DNA of 59,605 bases, taken from Planctomycetaceae bacterium (lineage in GTDB: Bacteria; Planctomycetota; Planctomycetia; Planctomycetales; Planctomycetaceae). Positions 20,234-54,313 of this stretch are shown piece after piece. Positions within the stretch are counted from its first letter, which is position 1. Every line of letters starts with the position of its first letter. The notes under the pieces were generated by a model that was given only the letters and a program-made list of their open reading frames with translations, was not told the DNA's origin and ran no database searches. The stretch spans positions 1-59,605 of the forward strand of contig OMIV01000121.1 of NCBI GenBank assembly GCA_900299185.1, written 5' to 3'. The position numbers and the translations under genes are program-made.

Positions 20234-20662
20234 TCAGGCCAGCATTCTCCACACAGCCAGCGCGATCAAGGTCAGAACCGCCAGCACGTAGCCAATCAAT
20301 CCCGCGACCAGCTTCCAATGCGAGGTTTCGTCGTCGACCTCATCGACCAATCGAATGGTCGCACGCTCGTCGTCAGAGCGGCTTGAACGAGACTTACTCG
20401 CCGGTCGCCAGCGTCGCAGCTTCCACCACAACCAACCGAGCGGCACCGCCAGCAACAGCCACAACGAATTGGCATCTCCGGCTGGCCGCCAACCACTCAA
20501 GCTGATTCGCCACGCCAATAACCCGGTGCCAATCAGCACCAGCCACGTCGCTTTGATCTCGAAGGGTTTCGAGAACTCACTGCTGCGAGCCTCGCGCCGC
20601 GGAATCAACTCCGGCTCATCACCGCCTGAGTCATCGTCTTCAAACAGCGGTTGAGTGGGCAT
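20234..20662 (-). CDS. Hypothetical membrane protein
   Basis: A 142-residue product with an acidic N-terminal region, two hydrophobic segments in the middle (TWLVLIGTGLLAWRI and LWLLLAVPLGWLWWKL), an Arg/Ser-rich basic loop, and a C-terminal membrane segment (LVAGLIGYVLAVLTLIALAVW). No family is recognised. The ATG at 20,662 is chosen over an upstream TTG. It lies upstream of the DUF1501 gene in the same direction with 45 bases between them, so the two may be co-transcribed. Confidence 0.7.
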   Translation of the reverse strand: MPTQPLFEDDDSGGDEPELIPRREARSSEFSKPFEIKATWLVLIGTGLLAWRISLSGWRPAGDANSLWLLLAVPLGWLWWKLRRWRPASKSRSSRSDDERATIRLVDEVDDETSHWKLVAGLIGYVLAVLTLIALAVWRMLA

Positions 20663-41542: not shown

Positions 41543-43288
41543 TCAGTCCGCACCGACCGTTCGATTGAGCCCCAAGACTTCAAACTTCACGCGCGCATCT
41601 GGATCCGGGTTGCGATGCAGATTGCGGTAGATCAACAACGAGTAGCCGCCGATGCGATCGGACTCGCCCGTCACTGCGACCGTGTGCTCTAAGCGATACC
41701 GATCAGGATGCTCGCGAAGAACCTGTCGAAGTCGAAGCGCCGTCGCTACGACTTGCTTGGGCTGAGGATCCTCGACGACCACGAAGGCTGGGTCATAGCG
41801 ATAGATGACGTCCATGATGTCCCGATCGGTTTTGGCGTATTCATGGAGATCCGTCGAAGGCACGCAGATGAAGCCATACAGCAGCTTGTCTCCCCGCAAG
41901 ACGGCATGCTGACGCGCGGGATCTAAGTTGCGCACGTGATAGCTGAAGTTGCCATCGAGCCAGCCATCGAACAGGAAGCGACTTTCGTTGGGCGAGTTCT
42001 TCAACACCCATTCGGCAGCCTCGCGATATCCCGACAAAGTGGGACGCGGAGCAGTCAAGGCCGCTGATGTCATAACTCCGACAACGAGCGCCGCAATCGC
42101 GGGCCTCAAGTATGGTCGAAGCCGCCCACGAGCAAGCTCAGTCACTCCGTTCCAAGCCATCACGACGAACGCCGGAATCCAATAGATCGAGTGTCGCACA
42201 TCGAGCTCGGCAATCGGCGTGAAGGTGGCATAAGTCGCCAACGCGATCGCGAGATACGGCACGTTCTGTTGCAGCCAATCCCAGCGTCTCAGTCGAGACA
42301 ACCCGACCACAGCCAGCCCCACCAATAACCATCCAATCTGATGCGGCAGCATTCGCAGATAGAACGCGAAGTTCTTCGCGGCCAGGAACCCCGCTGGCTC
42401 GGACATCACCGAGTGAGTGGCTTGCCGTGAATGCAGTGCTCCAACTTCACGAGCTGCGAGGGCATAGAACGGCAACACCAACAGCACTGCCCCCACGATG
42501 GCGATCCACACTTCAACGCGCCGCAGCAAATGCAACTTTCGGCGAGCCAACAGCAACAACCCAAAGCACGGCAACAGCCAGATGGCATCAAAGCGAGTCA
42601 GCGCTGCAGCCGCCGCAGCCAACGCGATCAAGACGAGATCGCGCCGACGAGTCGATTCCAAGTAACGCTCGAAGTGAAACACGGCCATCAACGACCACGC
42701 GAGTGTCGGAATCTCCAACATGACCTGCCGCGAGAACATGAAAATCAACGGACAGAGGCCGAACCAAACCAAAGCGACCGATGCCGAAAGTCGGTCGTGC
42801 GTCTTGGCCATCAGTCGGAAGAAATACACACCGGCCAGAACTGCGAATCCCGCGACGGCGATTCGTCCCACCAGGAACGAAGTACCGCAGACGGTCATCA
42901 GCAAGCCTTCGATAAAGTGAAACAGCGGTGGCCAGACGAGTAACCCCAAAGCGGGGTATTGCAGGTAGTACTGCTCGGCGTAAGTCTTGGGATTTCCCAC
43001 TGGCATGTCACTGAGCATGTCGGCAAAAAAGACGCCCGTCATGACGTGGCGATTTTCGTCACCATAGAAGACTGGCTCCGCAGGTTGGACAACGACGCCG
43101 TGCAAAGCAGCCACAATCAACATCGGCAAGACGCAGCTCAGCATCAGTGCCAAGCGGCCTCGAACACCATCGGCTGTCGAGAACAACCCGCACCAACTTT
43201 GTAAGCGTTCTGCCAATGATGGCTGGCTGCCACCTTCGGCTGCTGGCTCGCAAGTCGGTGATGGCGAAGAGACAGCGGTCGAACTCAT
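41543..43288 (-). CDS. GT39/ArnT-like membrane glycosyltransferase
   Basis: A 581-residue GT-C enzyme with about eleven to twelve membrane segments. The first periplasmic loop has the acidic pair in YGDENRHVM, the position of the metal-binding or catalytic Asp-Glu in PMT/ArnT-type transferases. These use polyprenyl-phosphate sugars as donors. The soluble C-terminal part (about 430-581) is globular. The start at 43,288 has AAGGA six bases upstream; an ATG two codons earlier overlaps that site. It is the last gene of a seven-gene leftward cluster. Confidence 0.87.
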   Translation of the reverse strand: MSSTAVSSPSPTCEPAAEGGSQPSLAERLQSWCGLFSTADGVRGRLALMLSCVLPMLIVAALHGVVVQPAEPVFYGDENRHVMTGVFFADMLSDMPVGNPKTYAEQYYLQYPALGLLVWPPLFHFIEGLLMTVCGTSFLVGRIAVAGFAVLAGVYFFRLMAKTHDRLSASVALVWFGLCPLIFMFSRQVMLEIPTLAWSLMAVFHFERYLESTRRRDLVLIALAAAAAALTRFDAIWLLPCFGLLLLARRKLHLLRRVEVWIAIVGAVLLVLPFYALAAREVGALHSRQATHSVMSEPAGFLAAKNFAFYLRMLPHQIGWLLVGLAVVGLSRLRRWDWLQQNVPYLAIALATYATFTPIAELDVRHSIYWIPAFVVMAWNGVTELARGRLRPYLRPAIAALVVGVMTSAALTAPRPTLSGYREAAEWVLKNSPNESRFLFDGWLDGNFSYHVRNLDPARQHAVLRGDKLLYGFICVPSTDLHEYAKTDRDIMDVIYRYDPAFVVVEDPQPKQVVATALRLRQVLREHPDRYRLEHTVAVTGESDRIGGYSLLIYRNLHRNPDPDARVKFEVLGLNRTVGAD

Positions 43289-43499
43289 GGGCATCCTTTT
43301 CAGCGACTCACATAAAGAGACACGGCATTCAGGATGGTGCTACAGATTCTGCAGGCTGCGGGGTGTTTCGAGCTGCCGCTGCACATTGCCAGAACGAAAT
43401 GCAGCGCGTCGACGATCATGCCGAAGGTCACGTCATGATCCGATCTGACAGTTCGCACTGCTGGCGCTCAATGCGACGATTGTTCGCAACCCAACACGC

Positions 43500-45272
43500 T
43501 CAGTCGGCGTCTGGAGTGCCCGTCGTCTTGAACTCGCCGGTTGAAGAATCTGAATTAGCAACCTCATTCTCTCGCTTGGAGGCTCGCGGCTTTCCTCGGC
43601 GATAGAGGTAGCGCAAGAACTCACCGCCACCGTACCACCGTCGCGTCACTTGCTGCAGGTTTGCAAAGCGGCGGCCATAGTCGCGCTGCAGCTCCCATTC
43701 GTATTCGAGCTGCCCCCACACCGGGGCCTCGTTCAACGGCCCGGTGGCCAGCACATACAACGAGTCGCACTCATCAATCCGGCGACGGAAAGGTTCAAGC
43801 TGCGACCATCCCACATCCTCTTTGCCGTGCTGTCGTTCGATGTCCTCTAAGACCACGAGCGACGGAGTTCGGAAGAACGACTTACCCGCCAGCCGCTCGG
43901 GCACATACCCATAAGGCACCCAAGCCACAGGACCATCGAGCGACTCCAACTCCGAACGCAGATCCGCAGCAGCAGCTTGCCAACCTTCTCGCTCGACATA
44001 GTCGTTCAACGGGAAGAAGGCCGTCGCGAATTGACCAGCCACAAGTAACCCCGCGAACAATCCAGCGCGCCACTCTTGGCGTTTGGCAATCAGCATCAAG
44101 CCCGCACTGCTCAGCGCGACAACCACGGTGATGATCGGCACACACGTCGGAATGGGATGATGAGCGAACTGCCTCGTCGCGATCCAAGTGATGCCCGACG
44201 TTCCCACAATCAGACCCGCCAAGACCCAACCCACCCACCGCGGAACTTCCTGAGCACTGAGTTCTCTCGCCCCCAAAGCTGCAGCCACACAGAACGCGGC
44301 AATGAAGGGCACGTAATGATTATTCGCCGAGCCCGCTGCCATCATGGTGAAGACCGAGATCGCCAATGATTGCCCGCAGAACCAAGTCAGCGCCGAGATC
44401 GATCGACGCGGCACACTGATCGACGACCGGAAGTAGAACACGGCCAACAGACACAAGTACGGCACGAACTCCAGAATTACGAACGTCGTGCGTTGCAGCG
44501 AGAAGCGCGGACTTCGTTCCCATGAACCAGGGATATCAAGCGTCGTGTAGACGAAGCCGGGACCTAACCAGCGACTGACCAAGAAGTAAGCCAGCGGTCC
44601 TCCCGTTAGCAGGCCCGCCACGATCGCCCACTTGGGCAACGAGTTCTTGCGGAACAGCAGCGCGTACAAGACCGAACCACCGAAGAACAACGCTCCATGC
44701 GGCTTCGTCCAAAACGCCAAACTGAAGCAGACGAGCCACGCGACATCGTGCCAACGATTCTTGCCATACGCCCAGAAGCAGCAGCCCAGCAACAACCAGA
44801 ACAACAACATCCAGTCCGGTAACGCGCAGGTCAGAGCCGCATCCATGATGCGATAGCTCGAGAAGTACAGCCCACCGGCCATGCTCGCGACGGCCAGCGA
44901 TCGAGACTCGCGCCAAGCGATCGCAATGCAGATCAGTCCCGAACCCAACGCACACAGCACTGACAACAATCGAGGTCCGGCAAAGTCCTCGCCACACATC
45001 AAATAGAACGGAGCAGATAGCACGTAGTACAGCGGCATGTATGACAGCGCGATGTAGTCCGCGCTGGGCGCGGGATACAGCGGCTCGTCCGAGCAGACTC
45101 GTTGAATGTGCTGCAAGACCTCGCCTTCCATGGGCTCCAAGAATCCGTCGTATGCCACATGACGCGCGGCGATCCCCAGAAACATGCCGGCGTAAATCAC
45201 CAAGCAGGCAACCGCCAAGATCGTTCCGTATCGCCACCACGTTGATTGGATTTCTTCTTCCACAGACTGCAT
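43500..45272 (-). CDS. GT39-like membrane glycosyltransferase
   Basis: A 590-residue polytopic GT-C protein. After the first membrane segment the periplasmic loop carries EPMEGEVLQHIQRV, with the acidic cluster where GT-C enzymes bind the donor phosphate. About ten further hydrophobic segments follow, then a soluble C-terminal region with an Arg/Lys-rich tail (YRRGKPRASKREN). It is paired with the GT-C gene downstream (211 bases away). The acceptor is unknown. Confidence 0.83.
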   Translation of the reverse strand: MQSVEEEIQSTWWRYGTILAVACLVIYAGMFLGIAARHVAYDGFLEPMEGEVLQHIQRVCSDEPLYPAPSADYIALSYMPLYYVLSAPFYLMCGEDFAGPRLLSVLCALGSGLICIAIAWRESRSLAVASMAGGLYFSSYRIMDAALTCALPDWMLLFWLLLGCCFWAYGKNRWHDVAWLVCFSLAFWTKPHGALFFGGSVLYALLFRKNSLPKWAIVAGLLTGGPLAYFLVSRWLGPGFVYTTLDIPGSWERSPRFSLQRTTFVILEFVPYLCLLAVFYFRSSISVPRRSISALTWFCGQSLAISVFTMMAAGSANNHYVPFIAAFCVAAALGARELSAQEVPRWVGWVLAGLIVGTSGITWIATRQFAHHPIPTCVPIITVVVALSSAGLMLIAKRQEWRAGLFAGLLVAGQFATAFFPLNDYVEREGWQAAAADLRSELESLDGPVAWVPYGYVPERLAGKSFFRTPSLVVLEDIERQHGKEDVGWSQLEPFRRRIDECDSLYVLATGPLNEAPVWGQLEYEWELQRDYGRRFANLQQVTRRWYGGGEFLRYLYRRGKPRASKRENEVANSDSSTGEFKTTGTPDAD

Positions 45273-45383: not shown

Positions 45384-46292
45384 TCATCGCCCACCCGATG
45401 ACGTCTTGCGATACACCGCCCAAAACAAATCCTCGGACGGGTAAGGCACCTGCAGGCGATCGGGCACAATGGCCAGCCCCGCAGAGATCATCTTCGCCAC
45501 CCACGAACCTTCAGCGGCTTTGTGCCGGATCAACGATTTGGCGTGTCCCATCTCAATCCATTTTTGAGGCCGACCGGTGGCGACTTCTGCAAAACCGCAC
45601 TTCGAGAACAGCTCTCCAAGAGTTTGCGGAGACCACCACTGCAACACGCTCGGCGGGCTGTATTCATGCCAGCCAGCGCCGAACATCCGCGCCGACCAAC
45701 TGCGCACATTCCAGGTTTCAACCACGACGATGCCGCCAGGCTTGAGCAGATCAAACAAGTGCTCGACCGCCACGCGCGGCTCAATGAAATGAGCCATGAC
45801 TTGAATGACGCTGATCACGTCAAAGGGCTCGGCAGACTCAAACTGCTCGAACGGCGCAGCAGTGACCTTGATCCCCAATTGCTCGCGCGCATGTCGAGCC
45901 ATCGCCGCATTGGGTTCAACACCGACACCGTCCCAACCTTCGGCACGCAAGCCTTTCAAGATGAAGCCTGCTGCGGCGCCAACATCCAACAGTCGCCCCG
46001 GCGATGAGAAGCGTTTCAACAACTTGCCGTAGCGTCGGCCATGAGCTTCAAGCAGGCGGGACTCACTGAGGTAGTTCGAATAACCCGCGCCGCCGCCGTG
46101 AAAGTAGTCGTCGCCGTAAACCTCAGCGACATGCTGCAGAGCGTCTGATGGGTGAGCGAACCGACGTTGGCATGCAGCGCACTCTTCGATCCAGATGTCG
46201 GACTTCTGAAAGAGCTTTCGAGTCGGCGCAGTGCGATCGCAAGCGGGGCAAGCCACTGCGGTTTGAACGCTATCGGCGACAGTAGTTGTCAT
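45384..46292 (-). CDS. Class I SAM-dependent methyltransferase with N-terminal zinc ribbon
   Basis: A 302-residue enzyme. The N-terminal 40 residues hold a probable zinc site, CPAC (near 15) and CAAC (near 39). A YGDDYFHGGGAGYSNY segment follows, then the SAM-binding motif LLDVGAAAGFILKGL and the post-motif region DVISVIQVMAHFIEP. This layout is common among methyltransferases of surface-polysaccharide clusters that act on sugar nucleotides or glycan ends. The start at 46,292 is chosen so that the zinc ribbon is at the N-terminus. Confidence 0.9.
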   Translation of the reverse strand: MTTTVADSVQTAVACPACDRTAPTRKLFQKSDIWIEECAACQRRFAHPSDALQHVAEVYGDDYFHGGGAGYSNYLSESRLLEAHGRRYGKLLKRFSSPGRLLDVGAAAGFILKGLRAEGWDGVGVEPNAAMARHAREQLGIKVTAAPFEQFESAEPFDVISVIQVMAHFIEPRVAVEHLFDLLKPGGIVVVETWNVRSWSARMFGAGWHEYSPPSVLQWWSPQTLGELFSKCGFAEVATGRPQKWIEMGHAKSLIRHKAAEGSWVAKMISAGLAIVPDRLQVPYPSEDLFWAVYRKTSSGGR

Positions 46293-46409
46293 AGAACTCT
46301 CGATTGAAGAATCGCTCGGCGTACTTCGTGAGGGACGTTTCCAACGTGCCCGAACTCTCCGTGTGACGAGCACGATCAAATCGTGCTCCATGTGTCTTTC
46401 AACAGGCTC

Positions 46410-47339
46410 TTACCACGGCATCCATTGCCTCGGTCCATAGACGCAAAATGCACACGACGTCAGCCACAAGAACCCATTGATGAGCGTGGGCTTGTCAGTC
46501 ACGAACAGCTTCGAAGGATCTCCACCTTCGAACTTCATGTGGATCAAGTAGAGGTATCGGAAGATGCCATAGATGACGAAAGGCGTCGTCAGTACCAGAG
46601 CGTGCGAACCAAACCTCTGAGCCGTTTGATCCGCCATCGTGTAGAGCGCGTAAGTCACCACCGCCGCGCCTGCCGAGATCGTCATCATCAGATCGAGGAA
46701 GTGCGTCGAATATCCTTCGAGACAAACTCGATGCGACGCAGCTTCATCCTTGAGAACAGTCAGTTCGTTACGCCGTTTGCCGAAGCCCACCAGCAACGCC
46801 AGCGTCAACGTACAGAGGAACAACCACGGCGACGGCTCAACTCGAATGGCCACTGCACCAGCGACAGCTCGCAGCACAAAGCCAATCGCGATGATCATCA
46901 CATCGAGGATCGCCACATGCTTGAGCTTGAGCGAATACCCCACATTCATCGCCAAGTAGAACAACACCAAGCAGCCGAACGGGACGTTGATCACGAACGA
47001 GCCAACGACACTTCCAACCGCCAACAAGCACATCGTCGCAGCGACCAACGTCGGACTGATCAGCCCTGCGGCCAACGGCCTGAGCTTCTTCTTCGGATGT
47101 CGCCGATCTTCTTCCAGATCATTGAGATCGTTGAGGAGATAAACGGAGCTGGCCGCGAAGCAGAACAACAAGAACGCTTGCAAGGTCAGCAGAATAGACG
47201 GCAAGTGAAACAGCGAACGTGAAAAGATCAGACCGCCACACACGAGCGTGTTCTTGATCCACTGATGAGGCCGCAGGCTCTTCGCGAGCGCGTACCCGAT
47301 CGTGGCATGGGCAGCAGGAGTGATGGCGTGTGTCGACAT
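46410..47339 (-). CDS. UbiA-family prenyltransferase, decaprenyl-phosphate phosphoribosyltransferase-like
   Basis: A 309-residue membrane enzyme of the UbiA superfamily, with about eight to nine membrane segments. The N-terminal LRPHQWIKNTLV and the first Asp-rich motif NDLNDLEEDRRHPKK match the phosphoribosyltransferase (Rv3806c-like) branch, which joins PRPP to decaprenyl phosphate rather than prenylating an aromatic ring. The second motif region is YSLKLKHVAILDV. If the assignment holds, the product is a polyprenyl-phosphoryl pentose that could be the donor for the two GT-C genes downstream. Start at 47,339 fits the family length. Confidence 0.85.
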   Translation of the reverse strand: MSTHAITPAAHATIGYALAKSLRPHQWIKNTLVCGGLIFSRSLFHLPSILLTLQAFLLFCFAASSVYLLNDLNDLEEDRRHPKKKLRPLAAGLISPTLVAATMCLLAVGSVVGSFVINVPFGCLVLFYLAMNVGYSLKLKHVAILDVMIIAIGFVLRAVAGAVAIRVEPSPWLFLCTLTLALLVGFGKRRNELTVLKDEAASHRVCLEGYSTHFLDLMMTISAGAAVVTYALYTMADQTAQRFGSHALVLTTPFVIYGIFRYLYLIHMKFEGGDPSKLFVTDKPTLINGFLWLTSCAFCVYGPRQWMPW

Positions 47340-47415
47340 GATGTGTTCTCGGGCTGGTCCCTTTAACTCAATCGCTCGTTCCGAAATCGATTCGCGAGCG
47401 AGTCTGCAACTGTTC

Positions 47416-47523
47416 TTACACGGTCGCCGCTTCAGGTTGGTGACATCCCAATTGACGAGCCGCATCGGCAGCGTGCTCGCGCATCGGGACCAGTCGATAG
47501 TGCTTCGCCATCGAGTCGATCAC
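47416..47523 (-). other. In-frame continuation of the deacetylase frame beyond its TAG stop
   Basis: Directly after the TAG at 47,524-47,526 the same frame stays open for 35 codons, starting VIDSMAKHYRLVPMREHA, and ends at TAA (47,416-47,418). This reads like the natural last helix and strand of a polysaccharide deacetylase of this type. The TAG would therefore be a new nonsense codon, probably from CAG (Gln). Confidence 0.75.
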
Positions 47524-48420
47524 CTACGCGACCAGGTCGACCTTGCGCTGATGAGGAACTCGCATTGCGGGGAAGAACGAGAGATCGGAATCGTCGTCGC
47601 ACCCCATGAAGTCCAACGGATGCAGCAGCAGTGACGGAGCGACTCCGTTCAATCGGCACATCGTCAAAGCCATGTGCCAATAGGTCATCGCCAGTGCTCG
47701 CGAGAATTGGTCGAGGTACAGCAAGTAACTGACATGAATCGGCACTTTGAAGAGCGGCATGGTGGTAACCGGAATCTCCAGCAACGTCGTCGCGCCTCGC
47801 GGCGGCGGCGACGGAATGCGATTCACGGCCTGATCCGACACGCTCCACAAATACGGCCGCAGCGGACGGAAGCCTTCACTGATTGTCCCGAAGAGTTTCT
47901 TGCGTTCGTTCTTCTGCTGCTCGTCCAACTTCGCGGTCATGAAGTAATAGAGCCGAGCCAACGGTCCCAAGAATGTCGGGAACGTCGAACAGTCGTATTG
48001 GTAGCCGCGTCGCGACAGCACTCGCAGCACATCCGGCGAGAGACTGAAGCCAGGCCCGCGAAACCCGACCGGGCATTGGCCGGTGACTCGTTCGAGATGC
48101 TCTTCAGTCCGCGCGAGTTCTTCGTCGATCTGCTCGATCGAGTAGAGTTGCAACCACGGCTCGTGATGGAACGAGTGATTGCCGACTTCATGACCTGCAT
48201 CAGAGATCGAAGCCAGCGCGTCGTAGTTCTTCTCGAGCGCTGCATCCTGACCAACGATGAAGACTGTGATCTTGGTGTCGCGTTCCTCAAAGAACTTCAA
48301 GAACCGCGGCACGACAACATCGAGATAAGTCGGAAAAGACTCCCAACCTTTGTCCCCATGCGTCTTCATGTAGGACCATTTGTTGTCGAGATCGAGTGAG
48401 AGACTCGCGAGTGGTTTCAT
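47524..48420 (-). CDS. Polysaccharide deacetylase (CE4/NodB), probably cut short by a TAG
   Basis: A 298-residue NodB-fold deacetylase. Metal motif 1 is SLDLDNKW (Asp-Asp, residues 7-14), motif 2 is GNHSFHH (His and His, near 102), motif 3 is RGPGFSLS (near 145). The C-terminal part (residues 215-290) includes LLEIPVTTMPLFK and LLHPLDFMG, the typical final strands. All catalytic residues seem present. The annotated stop is a TAG after KVDLVA; the frame continues for 35 sensible codons (see 47,416-47,523), so the ancestral protein was about 334 residues. Whether the short form is active cannot be told. Confidence 0.88.
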   Translation of the reverse strand: MKPLASLSLDLDNKWSYMKTHGDKGWESFPTYLDVVVPRFLKFFEERDTKITVFIVGQDAALEKNYDALASISDAGHEVGNHSFHHEPWLQLYSIEQIDEELARTEEHLERVTGQCPVGFRGPGFSLSPDVLRVLSRRGYQYDCSTFPTFLGPLARLYYFMTAKLDEQQKNERKKLFGTISEGFRPLRPYLWSVSDQAVNRIPSPPPRGATTLLEIPVTTMPLFKVPIHVSYLLYLDQFSRALAMTYWHMALTMCRLNGVAPSLLLHPLDFMGCDDDSDLSFFPAMRVPHQRKVDLVA

Positions 48421-48499: not shown

Positions 48500-49873
48500 C
48501 TATCCCAGGACCGCTTCTGGTTTGGGAACCGCGTTGCGCTTCATGATCGCGTTTCTTGGTTCATGCTTGGGCTGACTGCTCAGTAAGTCGCGCGACCAGT
48601 CTTCGGCCAGCTTCACGGTCTCGTTGACGTTCAGCGTGCCGTTGCTGATTTGAGCCGAGTTAATCGCCCACACATTCGGGATCGAAGTGCGAACGGGCGG
48701 CAAGTTGTCCGAGTAATGCAGCGTCGTCAGGGACACGACGTGGCGCACTCGCGAGATCTTGAAGTCGACCACATCGTCGCGAGTGAAGTGCGGATACATC
48801 TTTTCGAGCGCCGCGATGAAGCGAGCTTGGATGGACTCATCCGACTCTTCAAAGAGCGGATCGTCAGGAGCCACATACTTCGGCAAGTAAACCAAACTGC
48901 GACCGCCAAACTCGTTCTTATCAACGAGCGTGCTCATCTCGATCACGGCCGTGAACGGCACCCACGAGTCTGTAATATTTGTGACATAGAACTTGGCCAA
49001 CGGCTGCTTCAGCAACACCGACGCACACACGATGCCTTGGTATTGCAGGTTGTTGTGCCGCTGATGCTCTTCAGGACTCAGTCAAGGACACAGCTTGTAA
49101 ACCACTGGCGACGGCGTGGTCAGGATGACTCGATCGAACTCCTCATTGGCAGCGTTGGCCAAATCAACGACGACTCGACCCGACGGCAGATTCCAAACTT
49201 GGCGAGTGGCCTGGTTGGTGCGGACATCAACGCCTTCGGCCATCAATTGTTCGGTGAAGCGTTCGAGGATGCGGGCATAGCCGCCGCGCACGTAGCCGAA
49301 CATCTCTTTCTTCAAGCCCGTGCGACGAGCGGCATACATCCGCGCGATCGTGGCTCAAATGAAGGAAGCCGAGGTCTTGGTGTAGTTCTCGCCAAGCTTG
49401 GCTCGCAGCAACGGCAGCCAAATCTTTTCGAAGGTGCGTGGTCCCGAAAGTTGCCGCAGCCAATCGGCCACCGGAATGCCTTCGAGTGCTTTCCAGTCTT
49501 TGACTTTTGACGCATAGAAGATCGTGCCGCCCAGTCGGAACTTGTCGATCAGTCCCAGTGGCGGAAACTTGAGGAACTCGAAGTTGTTCGACATCGAGTA
49601 CAGCTTGCCGTCGGTGTAGAAGCCGGTCTTGGTCTCGACCCAATTCATGTCTTGATCGAGGCCCAGCTCTTTGAGAACGCCGCGCCAATGCATGTCGCTG
49701 AGCAACGTGACGTGATAGTGGCGGTCCCAAGTGACATCGCCGAGCTGCCACGCATCAGCCAAGCCGCCTAACTGCGAGGCCGCTTCGATCAACGTGACTT
49801 GCTCGCCTGCTTGAGCGAGTCGATGTGCCAGCGTCATGCCCAGAATGCCGCCGCCGATGATGCCATATTTCAT
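48500..49873 (-). pseudogene. FAD-dependent oxidoreductase with two in-frame TGA codons
   Basis: The frame from ATG at 49,873 to TAG at 48,500 would encode about 457 residues of an NAD(P)/FAD amine-oxidase-like protein, similar to UDP-galactopyranose-mutase/protoporphyrinogen-oxidase types. The FAD motif GIIGGGILG is at residues 4-12, followed by GGLADAW and WDRHYHV. Two TGA codons interrupt it: codon 173 (49,355-49,357, after KTSASFI) and codon 264 (49,082-49,084, after VYKLCP). Sequence on both sides is in one frame and fully protein-like (ATIARMYAARRTGLKKEMFGYV after the first; LSPEEHQRHNNLQYQGIV after the second). There is no frameshift or deletion. TGA is a normal stop elsewhere in the window, so nonsense mutation or sequence error is most likely. 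Confidence 0.9.
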
Positions 49874-49934: not shown

Positions 49935-49996
49935 CGTATGACGGACTTGCAGTCCGTCGCGCTGTTTGGAACGACGGACTGCAAGTCCGTCGTACG
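49935..49996. repeat. Inverted repeat GACGGACT(T)GCAGTCCGTC
   Basis: CGTATGACGGACTTGCAGTC and its mirror GACTGCAAGTCCGTCGTACG form 19- to 25-bp arms. Each arm also folds alone (GACGGACT/AGTCCGTC). It fills the gap between the acyltransferase gene and the oxidoreductase pseudogene. Confidence 0.8.
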
Positions 49997-50027: not shown

Positions 50028-50687
50028 CTACGCCAACAAGACGGTCTCCAGAGTGCCTGGCACGTCTTCCGGCGGCGTGAGTTCGATCACTTCGCCATTG
50101 GTGATTTCGTATTCGAGCCCGCATGTCGGGCAGTCCAGATGCTTGAAGTTGATCGGCCCTTCCTTCGGGAACTTCACCATCAGTTGGCCGCAGCGGCAGA
50201 CCGCTCCGATGGAGCGTGCCGGCGAACCCAACACCAGATGAAAGTCGGGCACCGACTTGGTCACGATCGAGCCCATGCCCACCATCGCCCAACGACCAAT
50301 CACAAGGTCATTGCCGATCGTGCAACCCGCTCCAATGGTGGCGCCTTCGCGCACCAGAGTTGGCAGCGTGTGCTCATCAGGATCGGACGAACGCAGTTGC
50401 TTAAGGTCCGGAGTCGTCGCACGAGGAAAGCGATCGTTGGTGAAGATCGTTCCGGCAGAGATCATCACTCCGTCTTCGATCGTCACGGCATTGCAGATGT
50501 AGACCATCGCATTGATCTTCACGCGATGCCCAATCTTGACGCCGTAAGCGATGTAACTTTTCTCACCGACGATGCATTGCTCGCCCAGCTCCGAGTCATG
50601 CCGAATATGGACGCTGTCCCAAACTGAAGTCCCTTCACCAATCAAGACGCGATCTTCAACGAGTGCCGTCGGATGAATACGGGGCAT
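50028..50687 (-). CDS. Left-handed beta-helix acyltransferase with C-terminal zinc ribbon
   Basis: A 219-residue hexapeptide-repeat acyltransferase. Repeats of the (I/V)GxxxxI type run from residue 10 to about 150 (VLIGEGTSVWDSVHI, CIVGEKSYIAYGVKIG, TIGAGCTIGNDLVIG), with SAGTIFTNDRFPR in the catalytic region, as in WbpD/WlbB-type N-acetyltransferases for UDP-amino sugars. The last 60 residues add CRC...CPTC, a probable zinc ribbon. Strong AGAGGA ribosome site. It is the first gene of the leftward glycan cluster. Confidence 0.88.
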   Translation of the reverse strand: MPRIHPTALVEDRVLIGEGTSVWDSVHIRHDSELGEQCIVGEKSYIAYGVKIGHRVKINAMVYICNAVTIEDGVMISAGTIFTNDRFPRATTPDLKQLRSSDPDEHTLPTLVREGATIGAGCTIGNDLVIGRWAMVGMGSIVTKSVPDFHLVLGSPARSIGAVCRCGQLMVKFPKEGPINFKHLDCPTCGLEYEITNGEVIELTPPEDVPGTLETVLLA

Positions 50688-51211: not shown

Positions 51212-54200
51212 CTAAGCCACTTGCCCTGAGAGTTCATCCAGCAAGCTGCGAATGATTTGCTCGGCATTGAGCCGGTCTTTGAGCCACGAGTCGCGAGTCT
51301 GCCTCCACTGCGATTCGCGTTGCTGCCACTCGCGATGCTTCGCTTCGAGCTGCGACTCTTGCTCGTGCAGTTCGTGCTCGCGGTCACTCATACGACGGAT
51401 GAAGGTCTCGCGATCGCGCTTGAGTCGCGCGGTCTCGTCCTCCAGTTGTTGTTGAGTCAGTGCCACCATCCGCGCGGTTGCGTCGGCCTCTGAGTGATGC
51501 GCGGCATCCTGCATCTCACGAATTTGGCCAGCGATAACGACGCGAACTTCCTGCACGCGCTGCCGTGCCTCGACCTCGCCCGTCAGCGACTTCAGCTCGG
51601 CCAACGCTTCTTCAGCCGCCAGTCGGTCTTCAAGGTTGCGGAGGCTCGTTTGTTCGAGCTCCTTCCTCATCGCTTCCAGTCGAGTTCCACGTTCTTGCAG
51701 CTTCTCCATTTCGCGAGCCTGCCGGGCCTCGGCCTGCTGCTCTTCCTGTAAGAGTTCTTGATGCTGCTTATCGAGCATCTGTCGTTGAGCACTCATCCGC
51801 TCGCGGTCGTTCTGCTGTTCGACATCGAACTCTTGCTGCCACCGCGCCACGAGTTGCTCTTCACGAGACAGCGAACTCTCACGCTCGGCCAACAGTTGGC
51901 GATAACGATCTAGCTGCACGTGCCGACGACGCAGTTGCTCTTGAGTCTGCGCGACCTGATGCCGCCATTGCTGCGCGAGCACCGTTTGTTGATGAGCTTC
52001 GGATTCGAGCTTGCGCTGCCACTCTGCCAGTTCTTCAACGTTTTGCTTGTGAGCTTCGACCAAGGCTTGGCGCGCACCATCCAACTGCTTGCGATCTTCG
52101 GCCAAGCGAGCTGCTGCTTCCGACACGAGCTGCTGATGACTTTCGCGCTGCTTCTGAAGAGCTTCTTGCTCCTGAACCAAGCGTTCTTCCGTCGCTGAGA
52201 ACTGCTGCTGCATGCCAAGTTCAAATTGACCTCGCAATGCGACGAGTTGCTCATCATGCCGAGCGCGATCCAAACGCAGCTCTTCTTGCAGAGCTTGCTT
52301 GTCTCGAATCAACTCGGACCGCGCCTGCTTAATCGCGGACTCTTGAGCGTCCTTAGTTCGCGTCAAAGCTTCTTGTTCGCGCTGTGTGCGTACTTCGAAC
52401 TCTTGCTGCTCGTCGGCCAGCTTCTTGCGTTCGGCTTCGATGTCAGCGGCTAACTGTCGACGCAGTTCTTGTCGTTCGGTGTCCCAGTTTGCACGCAGCT
52501 CGACCATCATGGCATCGCGCGAAGTGCGGGCTTCCGTTTCCAACTGAGCCCGTCGTTGAGCCAGCTCTGCTTCCGAAGCAATCGCAGCTCGTTCGAAGTC
52601 TTGACGTTCCCGCGCGAGTCCTTCGGTCTCTTGGTCGCGGCGCTTCGTCCATTCGGCATTCCGTTGTTCGAACTCTTCCTGCAAACGGCGTCGTTCGGCA
52701 GCGACTCGTTCTTGCTCGACACGCAAGCCTTCGTCGAACTTGCGACGCTCTTCAGCCAATCGATCGCGATGTTGCGCAGCCTCGTCCTGGAACTTCTGAC
52801 GATGCCGTTCGAGTTCGCTGGTGAATTGCTCGCGACGCTTCTGAAGTTCGAGATCAAACGCCGTGCGCTCACCCTGCAGACCGCGATTGTGATCTTCCTT
52901 CAGCCGCATCAACGAAGCGGCCAACTGCTGCTCGCGACTGGATTTCTCGTCTTCGATCTTGCGCAACGTTTCCACATTGAGGAACCGCTGCCGCGCGATC
53001 TCTTCCTCTGTGGTTACTCGTTGCGAGTCCCACTGACGTCGCTCTTGATCGACCTGCGCTCGCTGCTCGGCGAACTGCTGTTCGAGTTCACGACGTCGGG
53101 TTTCGAAGATCTCGTTTTGCTTCTTTTGGTCGTCGGCCAGTTGTCGTTCGGCGCGTTGCAGCGCGAGCGTTTGAGCGTCTCGTTCGCGCTTCAAGATCGC
53201 TTCTTGATCGGCCTTCGTCCGTTGCCAGTCGTCGCGTTCCTTCTTAAAGGCTTCACGCTCTGTATCGATGTCGGCACCGAGCTGAGTCCGCAAGCGGCGT
53301 CGCTCAACTTCCAGTTCGCGACGCACCTGCCGCAGCGCTTCTTGATGTTCTTCGCGCAGCCTATCCATCCGCGCGTTGAGGTCTTGTCGCTCGGCTTCCA
53401 CCAGCGTCTTCGAGTGCTTGATCGAGCTGCGTTCGACTTCCAGGTCTTGATCGGCCTGCTGTTTGAGTCTGGCTCGTTCGGCATCCAGTTCTTGCTTGAT
53501 CGCTTCCAGGTGTTGTTCGCGGCGCTGGAGTTCGCCCAGCAAACGTTGCCCCTGCTCTAAGCGATGAGCAAGTTCGCTCTCGCGCTCCTCCAACTGATGC
53601 TCGCGACCAATCGACTCGTCTTGAAGTTGCTGCTGAGTGATGCGGAAGCGGCGTTGCTCTTGCTCAAAGCTCGACATCAACTCGGACAACTTTTGCTCGC
53701 GCCATTCCAATTCTTGAAAGCGTCCCTGCAGGTTGTCGGCGAGCTCGCTGGCCTTCGCGAGCAGCTTGCCATCTTCGGCCAACATTGGAGCTGGCGCAGG
53801 CGCCATTTCGGACTTCAACACCTTCGCAAACGATGGCTCAGGCTTTGGTGTGGCGACGTTGTTGCGTTGCTGAAATGACTTCAAATCGAACGTGCCATTC
53901 GATGATGGCGGAGTCCGATCGAACGGACTTGGGGCCGGTCGAGGAGCCTCGTTGCGAATCGGTCGATCGTCTGTGTCGCGACTCAAACTTCCCAACAATT
54001 GATCGAGATCCAGCTCGCCCGAGAACGCGGTGCGCGACGTCTCACTCGGAGCTGCAGGTCGAGGTGCAGGTCGATAAGCAGGCACGGGTTCGCGGTTCGC
54101 CGCGCCTTCGGCAGGCTTATCGTCATGCCACGCTTGCTTCACCGACGATGCCAATTGCGAGAGACCGGGCGCGAGCGTTGACTTCGGGGGCACGGCGGCC

Positions 54201-54313
54201 TGAGCGGGGCTCTTCATGTGATGGCCGCTGCGCGTGTAGAGCATATCGGCGAGCGCATCGACGCCTCGTTCGCTATCGGAACGCGAGTTGTCGGCGGATT
54301 CATGGCCGGCCAT
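51212..54313 (-). CDS. Giant coiled-coil protein
   Basis: A 1033-residue protein. Residues 1-190 are disordered, rich in Pro, Ala and Ser, with a possible linear motif LDLDQLLGSLSRD near 100. From 190 to 1010 it is unbroken coiled coil rich in Gln, Glu, Arg and Leu. The end (KDRLNAEQIIRSLLDELSGQ) is a short amphipathic cap. There is no ATPase head, membrane segment or known domain. The start has GGAAGGAG upstream. It resembles the 752-residue protein at 4592 in style, not clearly in sequence. It probably has a structural or scaffold role. Confidence 0.82.
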   Translation of the reverse strand: MAGHESADNSRSDSERGVDALADMLYTRSGHHMKSPAQAAVPPKSTLAPGLSQLASSVKQAWHDDKPAEGAANREPVPAYRPAPRPAAPSETSRTAFSGELDLDQLLGSLSRDTDDRPIRNEAPRPAPSPFDRTPPSSNGTFDLKSFQQRNNVATPKPEPSFAKVLKSEMAPAPAPMLAEDGKLLAKASELADNLQGRFQELEWREQKLSELMSSFEQEQRRFRITQQQLQDESIGREHQLEERESELAHRLEQGQRLLGELQRREQHLEAIKQELDAERARLKQQADQDLEVERSSIKHSKTLVEAERQDLNARMDRLREEHQEALRQVRRELEVERRRLRTQLGADIDTEREAFKKERDDWQRTKADQEAILKRERDAQTLALQRAERQLADDQKKQNEIFETRRRELEQQFAEQRAQVDQERRQWDSQRVTTEEEIARQRFLNVETLRKIEDEKSSREQQLAASLMRLKEDHNRGLQGERTAFDLELQKRREQFTSELERHRQKFQDEAAQHRDRLAEERRKFDEGLRVEQERVAAERRRLQEEFEQRNAEWTKRRDQETEGLARERQDFERAAIASEAELAQRRAQLETEARTSRDAMMVELRANWDTERQELRRQLAADIEAERKKLADEQQEFEVRTQREQEALTRTKDAQESAIKQARSELIRDKQALQEELRLDRARHDEQLVALRGQFELGMQQQFSATEERLVQEQEALQKQRESHQQLVSEAAARLAEDRKQLDGARQALVEAHKQNVEELAEWQRKLESEAHQQTVLAQQWRHQVAQTQEQLRRRHVQLDRYRQLLAERESSLSREEQLVARWQQEFDVEQQNDRERMSAQRQMLDKQHQELLQEEQQAEARQAREMEKLQERGTRLEAMRKELEQTSLRNLEDRLAAEEALAELKSLTGEVEARQRVQEVRVVIAGQIREMQDAAHHSEADATARMVALTQQQLEDETARLKRDRETFIRRMSDREHELHEQESQLEAKHREWQQRESQWRQTRDSWLKDRLNAEQIIRSLLDELSGQVA

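Follow-up and report, generated by a model that had tools for sequence, protein, structure and literature searches.

In-frame stop codons in adjacent oxidoreductase and deacetylase genes of a planctomycete suggest recent inactivation of a two-gene module

The stretch of DNA analyzed here, referred to as the window, comprises the 59,605 nucleotides of contig OMIV01000121.1 from the assembly of a Planctomycetaceae bacterium (GCA_900299185.1, here G000). Its minus strand carries a gene for an FAD-dependent oxidoreductase that is broken by two TGA codons and, next to it, a polysaccharide deacetylase gene that is broken by a TAG. The features of the locus, in window coordinates, are these:

41543..43294, minus strand, PMT_2 glycosyltransferase gene, open frame without stops
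43500..45272, minus strand, gene for a cluster membrane protein, glycosyltransferase-like by inspection and with no Pfam hit, open frame without stops
45384..46391, minus strand, methyltransferase gene, open frame without stops
46410..47465, minus strand, UbiA-family decaprenyl-phosphate phosphoribosyltransferase-like gene, open frame without stops
47416..48420, minus strand, polysaccharide deacetylase gene (PF01522), interrupted by TAG, natural end at TAA 47418-47416
47524..47526, minus strand, premature TAG, codon 299 of 334 of the deacetylase gene, beyond which homologues continue for 24-59 residues
48500..49873, minus strand, FAD-dependent oxidoreductase gene (PRK07233 / NF005560, amine-oxidase fold), interrupted, 457 codons plus TAG
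49082..49084, minus strand, premature TGA, codon 264 of the oxidoreductase gene, a variable site with Trp (TGG) in the same-genus genome only
49355..49357, minus strand, premature TGA, codon 173 of the oxidoreductase gene, Trp in all 80 homologues aligned (best 80 of 164)
49941..49990, no strand assigned, dispersed 17-base repeat present as an inverted doublet, 68 bases ahead of the ATG of the oxidoreductase gene
50028..50687, minus strand, upstream hexapeptide acetyltransferase gene, open frame without stops

Translation of the oxidoreductase frame (49873-48500, minus strand) starts with MKYGIIGGG and is broken solely by the TGA triplets at codons 173 and 264. The first-pass annotation had taken the three open segments for a single gene, and this is borne out by homologues that span both TGAs and by 84% identity across them to the same-genus genome G001; homology that runs through both stops at this level indicates that the interrupted frame is more than chance. 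The Amino_oxidase domain (PF01593, E 3.2e-28) covers residues 12-377 and thus both TGAs. With the stops read as W, residues 1-433 match the NCBIfam equivalog model NF005560 (PRK07233) at 476.6 bits against a cut-off of 252, so that the protein belongs by score to this family, which is described in NCBIfam as hypothetical protein, but the gene is interrupted at codons 173 and 264. The read-through protein was modelled with AlphaFold2 (mean pLDDT 88.1), and its predicted fold resembles structures of phytoene desaturase and protoporphyrinogen oxidase. When the PDB was searched by sequence (E up to 1e-5), a plant phytoene desaturase was the one match.

Alignment of planctomycete homologues at the two interrupted codons had been proposed as a check and was carried out with the best 80 of 164 relatives. 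Codon 173 is Trp throughout, just as the first-pass annotation had expected. Codon 264 is variable (D25 Q22 E12 G11 A7 W1 S1 T1), and the sole Trp, encoded by TGG, comes from G001 (L031), the only same-genus genome. Selenocysteine was considered as a meaning for the TGA codons and rejected, given that W occupies codon 173 in 80/80 of these homologues and none has C at codon 264. None of the 80 carries a stop in the gene body; in two homologues (L072 and L073) a TGA occurs, but solely among the terminal residues of the match (429-437). Among 170 genomes of the order, taken as one per species and some of them incomplete, 27 carry the oxidoreductase at E up to 1e-60, and the stops are found in the source genome alone. 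The lesions are therefore absent from the orthologues, both among these 80 homologues and across the order. No second copy of the oxidoreductase was found in G000 at E up to 1e-3.

The remainder of the cluster had been described as intact, a statement that does not hold for the adjacent deacetylase gene. When the translated open reading frames of relatives were aligned to the window, the TAG at codon 299 appeared in those same-frame alignments that extend to the gene's end, and past it both the frame and the homology go on for 35 codons to the natural TAA. Of 63 matching homologues two were left out as too short, and the remaining 61 all extend 24-59 residues beyond the site of the stop. The residue at this site varies (E16 K11 W11 R10 D5 A3 Q2 G2 H1) and is Arg in G001. 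At E up to 1e-30 the deacetylase is carried by 27 of the 170 genomes and the stop again occurs in G000 alone, where no second copy was detected at the same threshold. Oxidoreductase and deacetylase occur together in 26 of the 170 genomes. The flanking genes for the acetyltransferase, the UbiA-like protein, the methyltransferase and the two membrane proteins were aligned to relatives without internal stops. This cluster looks like one for surface-glycan biosynthesis and, judging from the neighbours, the two-gene module probably takes part in making or trimming a surface glycan. Further upstream, at 51212-54313 on the minus strand, the window encodes a 1033-residue protein that by inspection resembles a long coiled coil; searches of Pfam and NCBIfam with it (E up to 1e-5) gave no match.

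The statement of the first-pass annotation that the oxidoreductase gene shows no other damage stands for the gene itself and fails beyond it, at the deacetylase TAG. At columns conserved to at least 95%, the oxidoreductase deviates at 0 of 113 (codon 173 excepted) and the deacetylase at 0 of 84. Since all other highly conserved columns are matched, the stops should be very young, artefactual or tolerated; under a pseudogene reading, such a lack of decay would fit a very young event only. Comparison with G001 gave dN/dS values of about 0.07 for the oxidoreductase and 0.10 for the deacetylase; dS is close to saturation. No relative-rate test against G001 reached significance (maximal chi-square 3.27 for the oxidoreductase with six outgroups and 0.95 for the deacetylase with five). 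Residues not seen in any homologue number six in the oxidoreductase, against three in its G001 counterpart, and nine in the deacetylase, against two, an excess that may be a weak hint of relaxation. Nonsense changes make up 3.5-4.1% of random substitutions in the two genes, and for these genes a post hoc calculation under neutral mutation gave about 13 missense changes at conserved sites for every three nonsense changes, with a probability of about 0.03 that two more nonsense changes precede any conserved-site missense change. Likewise post hoc, the share of TGG-to-TGA changes among nonsense opportunities was estimated at 6-17%, the value varying with the transition bias.

The two genes thus hold three in-frame stops, two TGA and one TAG, in 791 codons, and the rest of the assembly was searched for similar cases. 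A strict homology test, which took in 1.25 of the 7.87 Mb of G000, covered 126 stretches with 45,022 codons and returned three well-flanked stops, all at this locus, with two weakly flanked ones set aside; it covers the locus better than the rest of the genome because the relatives were fetched by that locus. In G001, the same test found no well-flanked stop and one weak one in 41,375 codons. A looser scan, in which the genome's own paralogues were included and the minimum identity was lowered from 40 to 32%, yielded 13 well-flanked and 11 weak stops in 90,610 codons. Three of the 13 are those at this locus, six lie in self-repeat matches (L150, L251) and four others (L162, L266, L227, L271) may be real. 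For G001 the looser scan gave five well-flanked and six weak stops in 74,717 codons. It missed a known stop in a sulfatase gene and is hence incomplete. The sulfatase gene in question (L337, C149 34000-36500 of G000) has a single in-frame TAG in the motif VL*GDHGWQLGDHG, at a position where we take Trp to be usual. Two of the four loci just named, L162 (at 4016) and L266 (at 5275), are giant paralogues with one TAA each at different places, each being open where the other stops; L266 has bacterial Ig and cadherin-like domains. In G001, a gene that is transposase-like by inspection only (L293 at 10656) has an in-frame TAG opposite a Trp of its second copy.

A reference-free codon-bias scan of 1.25 Mb produced six strict candidates, of which four do not belong to the oxidoreductase, together with 41 loose candidates (TAA 15, TAG 14, TGA 12), many of which are probably ordinary gene ends. 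Ten of the 39 loose candidates outside the oxidoreductase were analyzed with Pfam: four had no match, three had no domain across the stop (L266, L164 and window position 20236) and three had a domain across it. In an MFS transporter (L231 at 4098, minus strand) the Pfam domain crosses a single in-frame TGA, at a site occupied by F3 Y1 W1 in five distant plasmid homologues. An S9 peptidase (L264 at 5122, plus strand) has a Pfam domain that crosses one in-frame TAG and a Paludisphaera homologue that runs through, and an nSTAND1 protein (L248 at 484, minus strand) has one in-frame TAG inside its Pfam domain match. This assembly therefore does feature isolated stops in otherwise good genes, but three in 791 codons represent a local concentration. 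The single-stop genes elsewhere also indicate that nonsense inactivation in G000 is not peculiar to this locus.

Several observations bear on how UGA is read in this organism. The gene for release factor RF2 (prfB) is present in G000 without stops (457 bits against a cut-off of 370), and 293 long open reading frames end in TAA (115), TGA (97) or TAG (81). Among 67 sulfatase matches one has a TAG and none a TGA, and no stop lies inside a PSD1 domain among the matches listed (103 matches in all). The first tRNA scoring pass took in 150 of 213 first-look candidates. The assembly has 44 tRNA matches, among which there is neither a stop-reading anticodon nor a tRNA-Trp, a tRNA-Tyr, a tRNA-Gly (TCC) or a tRNA-Thr (GGT); a stop-reading suppressor tRNA was accordingly rejected. 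One tRNA at the end of contig C348, left untyped by ARAGORN, by inspection repeats the sequence of the tRNA-Ser (TGA) on C238, and two pattern matches resembling a tRNA-Trp with TCA are not tRNAs according to ARAGORN. In G001 the tRNAs for Tyr, Gly, Thr and Trp lie in one block (L204, 5674-7500) together with genes that, from their sequences, we take to be tuf, secE and nusG. A DNA search of G000, the completeness of which is given as 97%, with this Tyr-Gly-Thr-tuf-Trp-secE-nusG block returned tRNA-sized matches only. Because the whole block is missing in this search, the absence of tRNA-Trp most likely reflects a gap in the assembly. The tRNA-Trp of G001 is of the standard type, with a CCA anticodon and a 5-bp anticodon stem.

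Decoding of UGA as Trp by an altered tRNA-Trp with a 4-bp anticodon stem is outlined in PMC13092985, and the case described here resembles what that account sets out in having in-frame UGA at Trp sites. It differs in the presence of RF2 and of TGA terminators and in the normal 5-bp stem of the tRNA-Trp from G001. Reassignment of UGA to Trp throughout the organism would agree with Trp at both oxidoreductase TGA sites in the nearest relative and with an own tRNA-Trp that most likely lies outside the assembled sequence. Against it stand the intact RF2, the 97 of 293 long frames that TGA terminates, the lack of TGA in the 67 sulfatase matches and in the PSD1 matches listed (103 in all), and the lack of a stop-reading anticodon among the 44 tRNA matches. 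We rejected genome-wide reassignment on the first three of these grounds and regard it as exceedingly improbable.

Of the three options offered by the first-pass annotation, recent pseudogenisation fits best; consensus error is kept as a rival and readthrough is without positive evidence. An artefact ranks second, after recent inactivation, and appears rather unlikely: consensus errors, low coverage or a strain mixture in a metagenome-assembled contig would have placed one or more of the stops in a living gene pair that is in fact uninterrupted. Random errors are expected to be dispersed and mostly not nonsense, given the share of 3.5-4.1%, yet three stops occur in 791 codons and the strict test saw no other in the roughly 44,000 remaining codons with homology support. 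The artefact account draws on the state of the assembly, with its 383 contigs and a whole tRNA-tuf-secE-nusG block missing by DNA search, on the restriction of the stops to this one assembly, on the freedom of the conserved columns from missense damage, and on other well-preserved genes of the assembly that carry single stops of all three kinds.

Readthrough, possible but unproved, seems a good deal less probable than an artefact. It would mean that the stops are tolerated or used, with UGA leakily read as Trp by the near-cognate tRNA-Trp and with some readthrough of UAG, so that both full-length proteins would still be made at low levels and the module would be throttled. The protein sequence around the stops is preserved, the same-genus genome has Trp at both TGA sites, even at the one where no other aligned homologue has it, and the TGA of the MFS transporter lies at a site that is aromatic in all five distant homologues. 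Moreover, transient in-frame stops in bacterial genes under purifying selection have been described, as outlined in Belinky et al. (2021; PMC7918605). However, the stops are absent from the 26 other carriers of each gene, two UGA events in succession would leave very little product, one of the stops is a TAG, which is not ordinarily read by tRNA-Trp, and the tRNA-Trp of the same genus has the standard CCA anticodon and 5-bp stem. RNA folding shows nothing unusual 3' of either TGA (z -1.26 and 0.03) and is somewhat strong after the TAG (z -2.12). A conserved readthrough element was rejected, as no other carrier has the stops and folding after the TGAs is unremarkable; an orthologous in-frame stop in at least two genomes, as conserved readthrough would have it, was not found among the 170 genomes, where G000 alone has one. 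Literature searches brought up no paper on readthrough in planctomycetes; one of them returned a paper on termination-reinitiation. The more specific proposal that this lineage tolerates stops by readthrough, with UGA read as Trp in the surface-glycan module and perhaps in the MFS transporter too, that the module is thereby throttled in translation and not lost, and that the Trp at codon 264 of the sister genome is the sense version, appears more doubtful still.

Taken together, three stops of two kinds in adjacent genes that are inherited together, patchily distributed and uninterrupted in relatives argue for the recent loss of a dispensable module, and the patchy occurrence of the module (27 of 170 genomes) shows it to be losable. 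We therefore favour, with a probability of roughly 0.58, the view that the oxidoreductase-deacetylase module was inactivated very recently by nonsense mutations. The failure to find a second copy of either gene at the thresholds given above and the signs of standard decoding (RF2 without stops, TGA among the ends of long frames) agree with this view. Ribosomes would stop at codon 173 of the oxidoreductase, and the resulting piece of 172 residues would be missing the C-terminal portion of the fold together with the larger part of the substrate domain; the truncated gene would thus be a null allele. The deacetylase would be shortened by 36 residues at its C terminus. Once the module was off, additional stops would be neutral, and the event would be too young for visible missense or frameshift decay. 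Inactivation is opposed by the lack of clear decay, and the single stops in other well-preserved genes fit an assembly problem or a general tolerance of stops equally well.

The odd features of the locus have precedent, as short-lived in-frame stops in bacterial genes with dN/dS below 1 are described in the study of Belinky et al. (2021; PMC7918605), which considered a stop only if at least two genomes shared it. Common to that description and to our case are single-base nonsense changes in well-preserved genes, dN/dS below 1 and close relatives without the stops; the locus described here differs in that a single assembly is concerned and that three stops are spread across two adjacent genes. 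The palindromic 17-base repeat upstream of the oxidoreductase gene has seven exact copies in G000 (in the window and on C145, C239, C248 and C249) and none in G001, and it forms an exact inverted doublet twice in G000. Given this distribution, the doublet may have been inserted recently between the module and the upstream gene; that it triggered the inactivation of the module is speculative.

Should readthrough be demonstrated, the oxidoreductase would offer a natural example of a bacterial enzyme in which two UGA codons are read through. If the two genes are a young pseudogene pair, as we favour, they would represent an ordinary snapshot of gene loss and a warning that a gene with no other damage is not the same as a functional one.
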